From the NCBI GenBank assembly GCA_003250495.1, contig QKGH01000325.1:1-32898 (forward strand): a stretch of DNA of 32,898 nt, written 5' to 3'. A model generated the notes under the pieces. It was not told the origin of the DNA. It did no database searches and worked only from the letters and a program-made list of their open reading frames with translations. Shown here piece by piece: positions 7,238 to 13,850 of this stretch. The first letter of the stretch is position 1, and each line of letters opens with the position of its first letter. The DNA comes from Marinobacterium sp. GTDB lineage: Bacteria > Pseudomonadota > Gammaproteobacteria > Pseudomonadales > Balneatricaceae. The translations under genes and the position numbers were made by a program.

Positions 7238-7326
7238 GGTGAGATGGCCGAGTGGCTGAAGGCGCACCCCTGCTAAGGGTGTATACCTCTTGGGTATCGA
7301 GGGTTCGAATCCCTCTCTCACCGCCA
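7238..7326 (+). tRNA. tRNA-Ser (anticodon GCU)
   Basis: ggtgaga...tctcacc acceptor stem, loop CTGCTAA, long variable arm, TTCGAAT, encoded CCA. Confidence 0.97.
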
Positions 7327-7330
7327 TTTA

Positions 7331-7407
7331 GCGCCCGTAGCTCAGCTGGATAGAGTACCTGGCTACGAACCAGGCGGTCGCACGTTCGAATCGTGCCGGG
7401 CGCGCCA
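7331..7407 (+). tRNA. tRNA-Arg (anticodon ACG), copy 1
   Basis: gcgcccg...cgggcgc acceptor, loop CTACGAA, T-stem gcacg/cgtgc, encoded CCA; 77 nt. Confidence 0.98.
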
Positions 7408-7461
7408 TTGATCAACAGCAGCAGTGAATCTGCAGGTTTTAGCTCCAAAGCTTTATGTGTT

Positions 7462-7538
7462 GCGCCCGTAGCTCAGCTGGATAGAGTACCTGGCTACGAA
7501 CCAGGCGGTCAGAGGTTCGAATCCTCTCGGGCGCGCCA
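7462..7538 (+). tRNA. tRNA-Arg (anticodon ACG), copy 2 (variant T-stem)
   Basis: Same as copy 1 except T-stem agagg/cctct; 77 nt, encoded CCA. Confidence 0.98.
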
Positions 7539-7566
7539 TTCCTGACAGTTTTACATTTTTGGCAAA

Positions 7567-7643
7567 GCGCCCGTAGCTCAGCTGGATAGAGTACCTGGCT
7601 ACGAACCAGGCGGTCGCACGTTCGAATCGTGCCGGGCGCGCCA
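7567..7643 (+). tRNA. tRNA-Arg (anticodon ACG), copy 3
   Basis: Identical to copy 1 over 77 nt, encoded CCA. Confidence 0.98.
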
Positions 7644-7699: not shown

Positions 7700-9163
7700 A
7701 TGAAATTCATCATCAAGCTGTTCCCCGAGATCACGATCAAGAGTCGTCCGGTCCGCAAGCGTCTCATCGCCCGTTTACAGACCAACCTGCAGATAATCCT
7801 GGCCCGTATCGAGCCGAGCGTGCGCGTCAGCAGTTTCTGGGACAAGCTGGAGGTGCAGTATCAGGACGGCACGGCTCAGGTCCGGGAGCAACTGGTGGAC
7901 GCCATGGCCTGTACGCCTGGCATCCAGACCTTCCTCGAAGTCGAGCAGTATCCGCTGGGCGATTTCCACGCCGTCTATGAGTTGACGCGGGCGGCCTATG
8001 CCGAGCGTCTGACGGGTAAGACGTTCAAGGTGCGCGTGCGTCGTAGCGGCAAGCATGAGTTCACCTCCATCGAGCTTGAACGCTATGTCGGCGGCGGCCT
8101 GCGTCAACACACCGAGGCGGCCGGCGTCGATGTGCATAACCCGGAGGTCTGGGTCGACCTCGAAGTGCGCGATGAGAGCCTGTTCATCATCACCGCGATC
8201 CATCAGGGGCTTGGCGGGTATCCGCTGGGTACCCAGGAACCGGTGCTGTCGTTGATCTCCGGCGGTTTCGATTCGGTGGTCTCCTCCTGGATGACGATGC
8301 GGCGCGGCTGTAAGACCCACTTCCTGTTTTTTAACCTCGGCGGTTATGCCCACGAGATCGGCGTCAAGCAGGTCGCGCTGCAACTGTGGCGGCGTTATGG
8401 CTCCTCGGCGCGGGTCAAGTTCGTTACGGTGCCGTTCGAAGAGGTGGTCGGCGAGATTCTGCAGAATATCGATCACTCCCACATGGGGGTGGTGCTGAAG
8501 CGGATGATGATGCGTGCGGCGGACAAGGTCGCCGACCGGATGGATATTCCGGCGCTGGTAACCGGCGAAAGCATCGCCCAGGTATCGAGCCAGACCCTGC
8601 CCAATCTGCGCCTGATCGACGCCGCGGCCGAGCATCTGGTGCTGCGTCCGCTGATTACCATGGATAAGCCCGAGATCATCGATCTGACCCGTAAGATCGG
8701 CGCGTTCGAGCTGGCCAGTGCGATGCCGGAGTTTTGCGGGGTGATCTCCGACCGGCCGACGACGGCGGCAAAGCGTGAGCGGGTCGAGCGTGAAGAGCAG
8801 GGGTTCGATTTCGAGGTGCTGGAGCGTGCTGTAGCCGCCGTCGAGATGATCAGCATCGATGAGATAGTGGAAAATCGCAATATCAATTCTGAAATTGAGG
8901 CGCTGACCCGGGTAGAGCCGGGGCAGGTGATCGTCGACATTCGCGCACCGCAGGAGCAGGAGCGTAAGCCGCTCAATCTGCCGGGCGTCGAGATCCTGAA
9001 AATACCCTTCTATAAACTGGAGTCGGCGCTGTCCGAGCTCCCGCAGAATCGGCACTATCTGCTGTATTGCGAGAAGGGCGTGATGAGTCAGATGCACGCC
9101 CAGCACCTGATCGAACAGGGTGCTGACAATATCGGAGTTTATCGTCCCGCCGCTCAGAACTGA
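7700..9163 (+). CDS. thiI: tRNA 4-thiouridine synthase ThiI with C-terminal rhodanese domain
   Basis: MKFIIKLFPEITIKSRPVRKR...SGGFDSVVSSW PP-loop...LLYCEKGVMSQMHAQHL rhodanese Cys. Confidence 0.97.
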   Translation: MKFIIKLFPEITIKSRPVRKRLIARLQTNLQIILARIEPSVRVSSFWDKLEVQYQDGTAQVREQLVDAMACTPGIQTFLEVEQYPLGDFHAVYELTRAAYAERLTGKTFKVRVRRSGKHEFTSIELERYVGGGLRQHTEAAGVDVHNPEVWVDLEVRDESLFIITAIHQGLGGYPLGTQEPVLSLISGGFDSVVSSWMTMRRGCKTHFLFFNLGGYAHEIGVKQVALQLWRRYGSSARVKFVTVPFEEVVGEILQNIDHSHMGVVLKRMMMRAADKVADRMDIPALVTGESIAQVSSQTLPNLRLIDAAAEHLVLRPLITMDKPEIIDLTRKIGAFELASAMPEFCGVISDRPTTAAKRERVEREEQGFDFEVLERAVAAVEMISIDEIVENRNINSEIEALTRVEPGQVIVDIRAPQEQERKPLNLPGVEILKIPFYKLESALSELPQNRHYLLYCEKGVMSQMHAQHLIEQGADNIGVYRPAAQN

Positions 9164-9175
9164 GCGGCGTTTTTG
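9148..9175 (+). terminator. Rho-independent terminator of thiI, overlapping its stop codon
   Basis: cgccgctcag-aa-ctgagcggcg-tttttg. Confidence 0.92.
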
Positions 9176-9237
9176 TATCTTGCCGGGGTAACGTTCTGCC
9201 ACCCCAAAATGCGTCGATTTTTGTAAAAAAACTACAC

Positions 9238-9249
9238 ATTGTCGACAAT
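9238..9249. promoter_or_regulatory. 12-bp perfect palindrome ATTGTCGACAAT upstream of the oad operon (possible operator)
   Basis: Read directly; upstream of a possible -10 (tagaat, 9276-9281). Confidence 0.35.
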
Positions 9250-9351
9250 CTTGCTTTTACCTACCCCCTGTGGGATAGAATAGCGCCACTCGATTACGTT
9301 TGTTTACCTGATCTGTCACAAAGCAGGCGGGAGCGCGTGGTCGATTCATCT

Positions 9352-9413
9352 GTTCACCGTTGTCACTGTGTGTTCTATTACGCAACAGCCTCAGCCAAAA
9401 GCTGCCGGTGAAC
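9352..9413 (+). ncRNA. Candidate structured leader of oadGAB (putative three-way junction)
   Basis: P1 gttcaccg (9352-9359)/cggtgaac (9406-9413); P2 ctgtgtg (9366-9372)/cgcaacag (9381-9388, one bulged A); P3 cagc-caaaa-gctg (9392-9404). Confidence 0.4.
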
Positions 9414-9447
9414 TCAAGGGTTAACTACAGAACAGGAGCGCCCACAG

Positions 9448-9684
9448 ATGGATAATCTGCTCTCGGATGGCCTCAACCTGCTGGTCTTCGGAATGGGGTT
9501 TGTGTTTGTTTTTCTGACACTGCTGGTCGCGGTGACCGGTCTGATGTCGAAGCTGGTGATGAAGTTCGAGCCCGCTCCGGCACCGAAAGCCCCCAAGGTC
9601 CGTCCCGCTGTATCGCCGTCAGCCGCCAATAACGACCAGTTGATCGCTGTGATGACGGCTGCTGTCCATAAGTATCGCTCGTAA
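9448..9684 (+). CDS. oadG: Oxaloacetate decarboxylase gamma subunit
   Basis: 78 aa, one N-terminal TM segment (LLVFGMGFVFVFLTLLVAVTGLMSKLV), Pro/Ala linker; precedes oadA; RBS ggag 9435-9438. Confidence 0.9.
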   Translation: MDNLLSDGLNLLVFGMGFVFVFLTLLVAVTGLMSKLVMKFEPAPAPKAPKVRPAVSPSAANNDQLIAVMTAAVHKYRS

Positions 9685-9726: not shown

Positions 9727-11508
9727 ATGTCCGACGCAAAGAAAGCACTTGGAATTACCGACGTCGTACTGCGTGATGCGCATCAATCACTGTTTGCCAC
9801 ACGCATGCGACTGGACGATATGCTGCCGATCGCCGAGAAGCTCGATCAGGTAGGCTACTGGTCCCTGGAGAGCTGGGGCGGCGCGACGTTCGACTCCTGC
9901 ATCCGCTACCTGGGCGAAGATCCGTGGCTGCGCATCCGTGAGTTGAAGGCGGCGATGCCCCATACCCGTCAGCAGATGCTGCTGCGCGGTCAGAACCTGC
10001 TCGGCTACCGCCATTACGCCGACGATGTCGTGGAGAAGTTCGTTGAGCGCGCCGCCGAGAGCGGTATCGATGTGTTCCGTATCTTCGACGCGATGAACGA
10101 CCCGCGTAACCTGGAGACCGCGATCAGGGCGGTCAAGGGAACCGGTAAGCACGCCCAGGGCACGATCTCCTACACCACCAGTCCGGTGCACACCGTCGAG
10201 ATGTGGGTCGAGTACGCCAAGACGCTGGAGGATATGGGGGCCGATTCCATCGCGATCAAGGATATGTCCGGTATCCTGACCCCTTACGGTGCGTTCGATC
10301 TGGTGTCCCGCCTGAAGGCGCAGACCGGGCTCGAAGTGCAGTTGCATGCGCATGCGACGGCCGGCCTGTCCGACATGACGATCCTGAAAGCCGTGGAAGC
10401 GGGTATCGACCGCGTCGATACCGCGATCTCCTCGATGTCGATGACCTATGGTCATACCGCAACAGAATCGGTGGTGGCGGCATTGGCCGGCACCGACCGC
10501 GATACCGGGCTGGATCTGAACCGCCTGGAGGAAATCGCGGCCTACTTCCGCGAAGTACGCAAAAAATACGCGAAGTTCGAAGGTTCGCTGCGGGGTACCG
10601 ACTCCCGCATCCTGGTTGCCCAGGTGCCGGGCGGCATGCTGACCAACATGGAAAGCCAGCTGCGTGAGCAGGGCGCGTCCGATAAGTTCGACGAAGTACT
10701 GGCCGAGATTCCGCGTGTCCGCGAAGATCTGGGTTTTATCCCGCTGGTAACGCCGACCTCGCAGATCGTCGGTACCCAGGCGGTGATCAACGTCCTGATG
10801 GGGGAGCGTTACAAAACCATCTCCAAAGAGGTTCAGGGTGTCCTGAAAGGCGAATACGGTGCGGCACCGGCGCCGTTCAACGAAGAGCTGCGCCAGCGCG
10901 TGCTTGCCGGCGACGAGCCGGTGACCTGCCGGCCGGCCGACCTGCTGCAGCCGGAATTGCAGAAACTGGTCGGCGAGCTGAAACAGCTTGCCAGCGAAAA
11001 AGGGATCAGCCTCGAGCAGGGCGAGCGGGAGATCGATGATGTCCTGACCTACGCGCTGTTCCCGCAGATTGGCCTTAAATTCCTGGAAAACCGCGGTAAC
11101 CCCGACGCATTCGAACCCGCCCCGACTCTTGAGGATATAAAAACCATGGCAGCCCCGAAAAAATCCGGTCCGGAAGTTTACACCATCACCGTCAACGGCC
11201 AGAGCTACGTGGTCCAGGTTGCCGAGGGTGGTGATATCACCAATGTGGCGGCTGCGCCGGCAGCTGCCGCAGCCGCTCCGGTGGCTGCCGGTGCCGGTGA
11301 AGAGGTACCGGCGCCGCTGGCTGGTAACATCTGGAAGGTGATGGTCTCTACTGGCCAGGCCGTCCAGGAGGGCGACGTGCTGGTAATCCTCGAAGCGATG
11401 AAGATGGAGACCGAGGTCCGTGCGGCACGCGCCGGCCAGATCGTCTCTGTGGACGTCAAAGAGGGTGACGCCGTTCAGGTGGGCGATTCGCTGGTCACGC
11501 TGGCCTGA
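9727..11508 (+). CDS. oadA: Oxaloacetate decarboxylase alpha subunit (biotin-carrying)
   Basis: [19 protein letters not shown] carboxyltransferase domain, Ala-rich linker, C-terminal biotinyl motif EAMKMETEV. Confidence 0.97.
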
Positions 11509-11529: not shown

Positions 11530-12849
11530 ATGGATAAGCTACTCGATCTTTGGCACGCGTCGGGGCTGTACAACGTCACGTCCGGTCAGCTGTTGATGAT
11601 GGCGATCGGTCTGCTGTTGCTGTACCTGGCGATTCGGAAGAACTTCGAGCCGCTGCTGCTGGTGCCGATCGGCTTCGGTGGCATCCTCGCCAACATCCCG
11701 GAAGCGGGGTTGGCGTTGTCGGCGGTCGAAAACGCGGTCCACTTCGCCAAGCCGGAGGTGCTCAGTGCACTGGCCGGCGTGCTGGGGACCGCGCCTGAGC
11801 CCGAAGCGCTGCTGCACGCCTATCATGTCTCCGCGCCCACCGTGCACGCGGCAGCGGCGGGTGTGGCGGCGGATGCCGGCTACAACAATGGCATGATGTA
11901 CAATTTTTACCTCGTGGCCATCGCCTCCGGTGCGGCACCGCTGGTGATCTTCATGGGGGTCGGCGCGATGACCGACTTCGGTCCGCTGCTGGCCAACCCG
12001 AAGACGCTGTTCCTCGGCGCCGCAGCCCAGTTCGGTATCTTCGCGACGATCCTCGGTGCGGTCGCGCTGTCGATGAGTGGCCTGATGGACTTCAGCATCC
12101 AGGATGCTGCGGCTATCGGCATCATCGGTGGGGCTGACGGTCCGACGGCAATCTACGTGGCCAGCCTGCTGGCGCCGCAGTTGTTGGGGGCCATCGCCGT
12201 GGCAGCCTACTCCTACATGGCGCTGGTTCCGCTGATCCAGCCGCCGATCATGCGTCTGCAGCCGCCGATCATGCGTCTGCTGACGACCGAGGCCGAGCGC
12301 AAGATCAAGATGCATCAGTTGCGTCACGTGTCGAAGACCGAGAAGATCTTCTTCCCGATCCTGTTGCTGATCCTGGTGGCGTTGCTGCTGCCGGATGCTG
12401 CACCGCTGCTCGGGATGTTCTGCTTCGGTAACCTGATGCGCGAATGTGGCGTGGTGGATCGTCTGAGCGATACGGCGCAGAACGCGTTGATCAATATTGT
12501 GACGATCTTCCTCGGTCTGTCGGTGGGTTCCAAGCTCAGTGCGGACAAGTTCCTCGACGTACAGACGCTGGGTATCCTGCTGCTGGGGGTTATCGCTTTC
12601 GGTATCGGTACGGCGGCCGGCGTGTTGATGGCCAAGTTGATGAACAAGCTGTCGGGCGGCGACTCCATCAACCCGCTGATCGGCTCGGCCGGGGTATCGG
12701 CGGTGCCGATGGCGGCCCGTGTCTCCAACAAGATAGGTCTGGAGGCCAACCCGCAGAATTTCCTGCTGATGCATGCCATGGGACCGAACGTCGCAGGCGT
12801 TATCGGCTCTGCCGTGGCGGCAGGGGTCATGATCAAGTTCGTTGGCTGA
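11530..12849 (+). CDS. oadB: Oxaloacetate decarboxylase beta subunit (Na+ pump)
   Basis: [13 protein letters not shown] motif, [47 protein letters not shown]. Confidence 0.97.
12238..12279 (+). repeat. Perfect 21-bp in-frame tandem duplication in oadB (QPPIMRL x2)
   Basis: cagccgccgatcatgcgtctg at 12238-12258 and again at 12259-12279, identical. Confidence 0.98.
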
Positions 12850-12911: not shown

Positions 12912-13850
12912 TCAGTTATCCGGCGTGGAGGCGGCGGCCAGCACTTCGATATGGGCCAGAACGCTGAAGGCCAGCGAGATGGGGTTATAACCCCCTTCGA
13001 GCACGGAGACGACGCGCCCCTGGCACAGCGCATCGGCGGCCGCCACTATCTGCTCCGTTACCCAGCGATAGTCCTCCTCTTCCAGATTCAGATCGCCCAT
13101 CGGGTCCTCTTTATGAGCATCGAAGCCGGCTGAGATGAAGATGATGTCAGGCTCGTGACGATAGAGCGCCGGTAGCCACTGCTGTTCTACCGCGGTGCGG
13201 AAGTCGCTCGGTGGACTGAACGCCTTCAGTGGACAGTTGACGATATTGGGGCGATTGATCTCCGAGTAACGTTCCGGGTAGTAGGGGTGCTGGAAGGTCG
13301 AACAGACCAGGACCTCCGGACGATCTTTGAAGATATCCACAGTGCCGTTGCAGTGGTGCACATCGAAGTCGAGGATGGCGACGCGCTGGATGCGGGAGTC
13401 CTGCAGGGCATGGCAGGCGGCGATGGCGACGTTGTTGTAGAAACAGAATCCCATTGCGGCCTTGAATTCGGCATGGTGTCCCGGGGGACGTACCGCGACG
13501 AATGCGTTGTGCGCGGCGCCGCTGAGCACGCGCTCGGTGGCCAGGATCGAGCCCCCCGCCGCGAGATCTGCCGCGTGCAGCGAGTCGGGGCAGAGCGCGG
13601 TGTCCTCGTCGGTATAGACCACCCCTTCGCTGGGCAATTTCATCTGCAGCCGGGTTTGATGCAGGTCGGCGTGTGCAAGTCGAATCTGTTCGGGCGTCGC
13701 CGGGACCGCGTCGAGCTGGTCGAGCAACTGCATCAGGCCGCTGCGTTCAAGCACTCGCCGGATCGCGTGCAAACGGACCGGGCTTTCCGGGTGTTCGGGA
13801 CCCAGATTGTGAAGATTGCAGTCCTGATGACTGATATAGGCGGTTGTCAT
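12912..13850 (-). CDS. Histone deacetylase-family (AcuC/APAH-like) Zn-dependent deacetylase
   Basis: VRPPGHHAEFKAAMGFCFYNNVAIAA, ILDFDVHHCNGT, SAGFDAHKEDPMG, LEGGYN motifs. Confidence 0.93.
   Translation of the reverse strand: MTTAYISHQDCNLHNLGPEHPESPVRLHAIRRVLERSGLMQLLDQLDAVPATPEQIRLAHADLHQTRLQMKLPSEGVVYTDEDTALCPDSLHAADLAAGGSILATERVLSGAAHNAFVAVRPPGHHAEFKAAMGFCFYNNVAIAACHALQDSRIQRVAILDFDVHHCNGTVDIFKDRPEVLVCSTFQHPYYPERYSEINRPNIVNCPLKAFSPPSDFRTAVEQQWLPALYRHEPDIIFISAGFDAHKEDPMGDLNLEEEDYRWVTEQIVAAADALCQGRVVSVLEGGYNPISLAFSVLAHIEVLAAASTPDN

Follow-up and report, generated by a model that had tools for sequence, protein, structure and literature searches.

The leader of oadGAB in this Marinobacterium genome carries a structured RNA that is genuine, lineage-restricted and previously uncatalogued. 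In the 32,898-nt stretch of contig QKGH01000325.1 that we analysed (the window), three helices (P1, P2 and P3) form a three-way junction directly before oadG, and we have very little doubt that this conserved junction structure is real. Two properties mark it as a structured cis-regulatory leader RNA: it stands before a single gene family, always placed and oriented alike, and the covariation in its aligned sequences points to a structure that neither phylogeny nor coding explains. Its function, as modelled from two further pairings that flank the junction (P0 and P4), is probably the riboswitch-like control of oadGAB translation within this lineage.

Gene context and transcript start

The window encodes all three subunits of a Na+-pumping oxaloacetate decarboxylase on the forward strand: the 78-aa gamma subunit OadG (9448-9684, Pfam OAD_gamma 1.4e-21), the alpha subunit OadA with its biotin domain (9727-11508, Pfam PYC_OADA, HMGL-like and Biotin_lipoyl), and the beta subunit OadB (11530-12849, Pfam OAD_beta 3.3e-155). 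oadG starts with ATG (9448-9450) behind a Shine-Dalgarno (SD) GGAG at 9435-9438, assigned by sequence. Downstream, a gene for a histone-deacetylase-domain protein (12915-13850, minus strand) converges with oadB. Upstream, a gene-free gap of about 280 nt separates oadG from thiI (7700-9163, Pfam ThiI), a terminator-like intrinsic hairpin spans 9148-9169, and four tRNA genes are clustered at 7238-7640 ahead of thiI.

The top hexamer pair in 9169-9440 is TTGCTT and TAGAAT at a 19-nt spacing (9251-9281, forward strand), a candidate sigma-70 promoter of oadGAB that a strict-spacing consensus scan missed and looser scoring picked up. Both hexamers are kept in all aligned members of the genus Marinobacterium. 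Transcription would then start near 9289, upstream of the junction element, and the leader would be roughly 160 nt long. The earlier note had treated a start downstream of 9350 as incompatible with a leader element here; since the conserved promoter puts the start near 9289, sequence evidence speaks for a transcript that includes the element. A stable hairpin (CGAUUACG...CGUGGUCG) can also form within 9289-9343, 5' of the element, and is not kept in the genus alignment.

Amphritea and Neptuniibacter have a TTGCCT-N17-TTTAAT promoter close to the element, so their transcripts probably start approximately 20 nt 5' of it. An inverted repeat (for example CCTGAAATCTGCATTTCAGG) lies between TTGCCT and TTTAAT in the oadG promoters of Amphritea, Neptuniibacter and Pontibacterium (L072, L101, L106 and relatives). 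Such a repeat between the -35 and -10 hexamers is a possible operator, and oadGAB transcription may therefore be regulated as well.

A covarying junction in four genera

P1 closes the junction by pairing GTTCACCG (9352-9359) with CGGTGAAC (9406-9413); it encloses P2 (9366-9388), a hairpin variable in sequence and length that forms in every case, and P3 (CAGC-CAAAA-GCTG, 9392-9404), whose pentaloop at 9396-9400 is conserved as CAMAA. All lie on the forward strand, and the three-way junction proposed in the earlier note was found segment by segment as described there. For the junction by itself (9349-9416) the folding energy is -21.9 kcal/mol (z = -3.2), a stability that none of 200 shuffles reached; the full leader is less exceptional in stability (z = -2.3, 3 of 200 shuffles).

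Searching relatives at the DNA level recovered the region from genomes of the same genus, full-length in some, and the aligned leaders share a common junction. We then used a covariance model made from 13 sequences and spanning 9343-9422, from CAUC to GGGUU only, with the SD and start codon excluded. This model matched 35 of 117 genomes of the family, with one match each. In all 30 matches that were fetched, oadG begins about 26 nt downstream, and four further matches were confirmed directly. The genuine element is thereby present as a single copy in 34 genomes of four genera, directly 5' of oadG in all 34; the carriers are two Marinobacterium groups (1 and 6), Amphritea and Neptuniibacter, which we take to be Nitrincolaceae-type marine gammaproteobacteria. 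The 35th match (G083, E=0.005), the lone match in a fifth genus, was rejected as chance, the fetched stretch containing neither oadG nor oadA. Candidate second copies in carrier genomes were weak (E 0.3-10) and were likewise set aside as chance, the recurring ones falling at the start of a ribosomal-protein gene that is presumably L19-like and stands beside what we take to be trmD-like and rimM-like genes.

Outside the family, searches of the order (392 genomes) and the class (369 genomes) under stricter filters found no element, and the oadG leaders there bear no apparent relation to it. By eye, the junction is absent from the oadG leaders of Neptunomonas, Oceanospirillum, Halomonas, Methylophaga and Osedax symbionts, and from those of M. 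nitratireducens, M. rhizophilum, M. profundum and M. sedimentorum. Several leaders look like intermediates: M. jannaschii (L095) has CAUC and P1 with an altered P3, Marinobacterium sp. N1E34 (L115) has P1-P3 with CAMAA and without CAUC, Pontibacterium and a related MAG (L101 and L104) have P1 and P2 only, and one Amphritea sp. (L126) has an altered P3 loop and a P1 of 10 bp.

Absence of the stems from close relatives, or of covariation from homologues, had been named in the earlier note as grounds for abandoning the junction. We found that P1-P3 recur in close and more distant relatives, with strong covariation in the four genera. In P1, 98% of the pairs are canonical, and the oadA tree gives 20 double compensatory changes that arose independently, versus 0-3 in shifted registers (P1 was read off at fixed anchor positions, skipping a single bulged U in Amphritea). 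The same tree gives three double compensatory changes for P3 and one for P4. On the first alignment, the covariation score of the three helices was 0.458 versus 0.277 in shuffled alignments, and slid registers reached at most 0.17. For the whole structure over 38 matches, in an alignment that was fitted to the structure and includes one doubtful row (L114), the score was 0.500 versus 0.245 +/- 0.017 in shuffles, with slid registers at most 0.18.

Conservation of sequence is distributed differently from conservation of pairing. Between-genus identity is 0.90 for CAUC, 0.86 for the P3 loop and 0.96 for the SD region GGAGCACCC, compared to 0.40 at fourfold-degenerate oadA sites and 0.42 for the four bases before CAUC; the P1 arms (0.45-0.52) and P2 (0.27) are far less constrained. 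The P3 loop reads CAAAA or CACAA in 33 of 34 sequences, and CAU is kept in 33 of the 34 that were aligned. This contrast in identity singles out CAUC, the P3 pentaloop, GGGU and the SD region as the fixed elements outside the P1-P3 helices.

Predicted pairing at the oadG start site

Two of these fixed elements have predicted partners at the start of oadG. In P0, CAUC (9347-9350) pairs with GATG (9447-9450) across the start codon; in the window this core can be extended to nine pairs, joining 9345-9353 to the start codon-containing strand ACAGATGGA (9444-9452), with 9352-9353 shared with P1. In P4, GGGT (9418-9421) pairs with GCCC (9440-9443) directly past the SD. All four strands are on the forward strand. 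RNAalifold, run separately for Marinobacterium group 1, Marinobacterium group 6 and Amphritea, returned the same P0-P1-P2-P3-P4 fold each time.

P0 dominates the predicted ensembles of most homologues. The window's AUG has an unpaired probability of 0.00 in the predicted ensemble, rising to 0.93 when CAUC is blocked, and the group averages for the start codon rise from 0.00-0.13 to 0.52-0.78 under the same block. Other folds are preferred in L063 (group 6) and L057, the pairing is shifted in L070, and in four Neptuniibacter (L090, L093, L094 and L122) CAU is predicted to pair with an AUG just 3' of P1 over P0. P0 has no possible covariation because GAUG is fixed by coding need, and CAUC could be conserved for a reason other than P0.

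The P4 core pairs in nearly all homologues as GGGU/ACCC, GGGU/AUCC or GGAU/AUCC, the readings of L057, L070 and L071 being of doubtful register; GGAU/AUCC in L126 is a compensatory change. In Amphritea and most Neptuniibacter, P4 is lengthened by UUC/GAG over the SD itself. In four relatives that lack the junction (L064, L075, L101 and L104), the sequences flanking the SD can still pair, as GGAU/AUCC or as GGGUUUC/GAGCAUCC. P4 may therefore predate the junction.

In prediction, then, P0 and P4 give the leader an expression platform able to hide the start site, as a translational riboswitch would have. The earlier note had proposed a riboswitch-like leader; a conserved junction beside an occluded ribosome-binding site is indeed what we find, with CAUC/GATG and GGGT/GCCC as the sequestering pairs in place of those it had suggested. 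We propose that the junction, composed of the closing P1, the variable spacer P2, and P3 with its CAMAA loop, probably serves as the sensor or recognition domain, directly flanked by its platform in the form of CAUC 5' of P1 and GGGU 3' of P1. In the default state, P0 and P4 would both be formed, likely occluding the oadG start and blocking initiation. A signal that acts at CAUC, at the junction or at the P3 loop would release the start codon, turning the gene ON; a signal that stabilised the junction together with P0 would have the opposite effect and turn it OFF. A CAU/AUGGG extension of P1 that rivals P0 and P4 can form in Amphritea and Neptuniibacter; it would leave the start codon accessible and makes an appealing candidate for the ON state. 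It is absent from Marinobacterium and therefore supports no general claim about the ON state.

Competing readings and related RNAs

We compared the leader with known RNA families and found no counterpart. Across the 4227 families of Rfam 15, none matches the window's leader (9250-9480), whether at gathering score or at E<=10, in agreement with the earlier note, which had recognised no known class. No family matched at 11 homologue loci, and three homologue leaders gave only sub-threshold noise (E 2.8-8.1), mostly from eukaryotic families. The element is undescribed in the literature searched (open-licence papers only), and no paper searched reports how the oxaloacetate decarboxylase pump is controlled in these marine bacteria.

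That the junction is an ion or small-molecule aptamer, with P0 and P4 as its translational platform, is a narrower form of our preferred explanation and a serious contender at somewhat under an even chance, the ligand then being most likely Na+ or a metabolite connected with oxaloacetate or biotin. A complex covarying junction sits directly at the ribosome-binding site, and precedents exist at related genes. The Na+-I riboswitch (the DUF1646 motif, RF03071 'Sodium') can precede oxaloacetate decarboxylase genes (PMC9337991), the nhaA-I Li+ riboswitch is occasionally found before oadG (PMC9646797), both controlling oad genes in other bacteria, and orphan motifs precede nqrA, the gene of another Na+ pump (PMC11109978). 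However, conservation outside the helices is limited to CAMAA and CAUC, and the linkers vary; apart from CAMAA, few unpaired nucleotides are conserved, a thin set for a small-molecule aptamer; the distribution is narrow and confined to one gene; and neither of the known Na+ and Li+ riboswitches matched. RF03071 matched nothing within 9250-9480 at E<=10 and had no hit above the cut-off in 17 related genomes, and the covariance model of nhaA-I (RF03057) had no match at the element. Na+-I resembles the oadG element in being a leader RNA that places a Na+-linked pump under riboswitch control (PMC9337991), but its described form has two substructures of extended base pairing, P1 and P2, whereas the oadG element is built as a three-way junction whose P3 loop is CAMAA; nhaA-I resembles Na+-I in architecture and differs accordingly. 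That the leader senses a small ligand, and so is a riboswitch in the strict sense, we put forward tentatively. Na+ would be the most natural ligand, a guess from gene context only, and with a single gene context the ligand cannot be triangulated. The fullest version, a new riboswitch class in which the CAMAA-P3 junction senses Na+ or an oxaloacetate-node metabolite and frees the CAUC-held start codon to turn oadGAB ON, is conceivable and somewhat doubtful.

Recognition by a protein offers another reading of the same conservation, and a rather unlikely one. A protein binding the P3 hairpin through its CAMAA loop, together with the junction, would repress or activate oadG translation as in ribosomal-protein and other autogenous leaders. 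Within the junction, conservation peaks in one hairpin loop carried by a G-C stem, whereas P2 drifts freely, and a restricted lineage with a single target is typical of protein-recognised leaders. There is, however, no candidate protein, and P0 and P4 explain CAUC and GGGU without one.

A passive damper or thermosensor, in which P0 and P4 set a low, temperature- or ribosome-dependent rate of initiation and the junction is a mere spacer, we judge unlikely. Occlusion of the start site is predicted from P0 and P4 alone, and P4-like pairing survives in junction-less relatives; yet a mere spacer leaves the conservation of the P3 loop and the three-way junction unexplained over a divergence that leaves silent sites 0.40 identical.

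The mechanism originally suggested in the earlier note, in which the P1 5' arm alternates between P1 and SD-proximal gaacagg with assistance from the P2 loop, is very improbable. The segments involved (TCTGTTC 9349-9355, GAACAGG 9430-9436, TGTTCT 9371-9376, AGAACA 9429-9434 and the SD GGAG) lie as that note described, and the 7-bp complementarity of the arm to gaacagg is real in the window at -8.6 kcal/mol. The pairing is not conserved, however, and has an ensemble probability of 0.00 in all homologues but two (0.01 and 0.25). Mutually exclusive pairing of the arm also fails in comparison, since in group 1, to which the window belongs, and in Neptuniibacter a leader's own arm does no better than arms swapped across genera. 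P2 is unconserved in sequence, so pairing of its loop with agaaca cannot be a general mechanism. Attenuation through a leader peptide is scarcely credible: an ORF of 24 codons is present in the window (GTG at 9337, preceded by GGGAG), but its reading frame is not kept among homologues, both the CAUC-to-P3-loop and the P3-loop-to-ATG spacings vary by non-multiples of three, and the double compensatory changes indicate an RNA rather than a peptide.

We therefore return to a structured leader that is predicted to act like a translational leader switch and lies outside the Rfam families, RF03071 and RF03057 included. In kind and scale its nearest match appears to be the nqrA motif of Marinomonas and the nqrA-II motif of Pasteurellaceae, which are likewise rare, lineage-restricted orphan leaders that immediately precede the gene of a Na+ pump; nqrA-II is found in five genera of one family (PMC11109978). 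By description nqrA-II differs in having four stem-loops, P1-P4, and in its gene, while the oadG element has no Rfam match, lies before oadG and not nqrA, and is carried by Marinobacterium, Amphritea and Neptuniibacter and not by Pasteurellaceae. The dauA motif of Streptomyces is also a three-stem junction beside an occluded ribosome-binding site and a proposed translational switch (PMC11109978), but its SD lies inside the junction, whereas the SD and start codon of the oadG element lie in the separate helices P4 and P0 outside P1-P3, and its gene and phylum are unrelated.

RNA sensors have repeatedly been placed before sodium pumps, as the Na+ and Li+ riboswitches and the nqrA orphan motifs illustrate, and the oadG element is a further structured leader at a Na+-pump gene, one that neither Rfam nor any of the papers searched includes. 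At about 110 nt it is a small and testable design, and its natural variants are ready-made compensatory mutants. A ligand, if found, would make it either an independently evolved sodium sensor or the reader of a signal for oxaloacetate decarboxylation.
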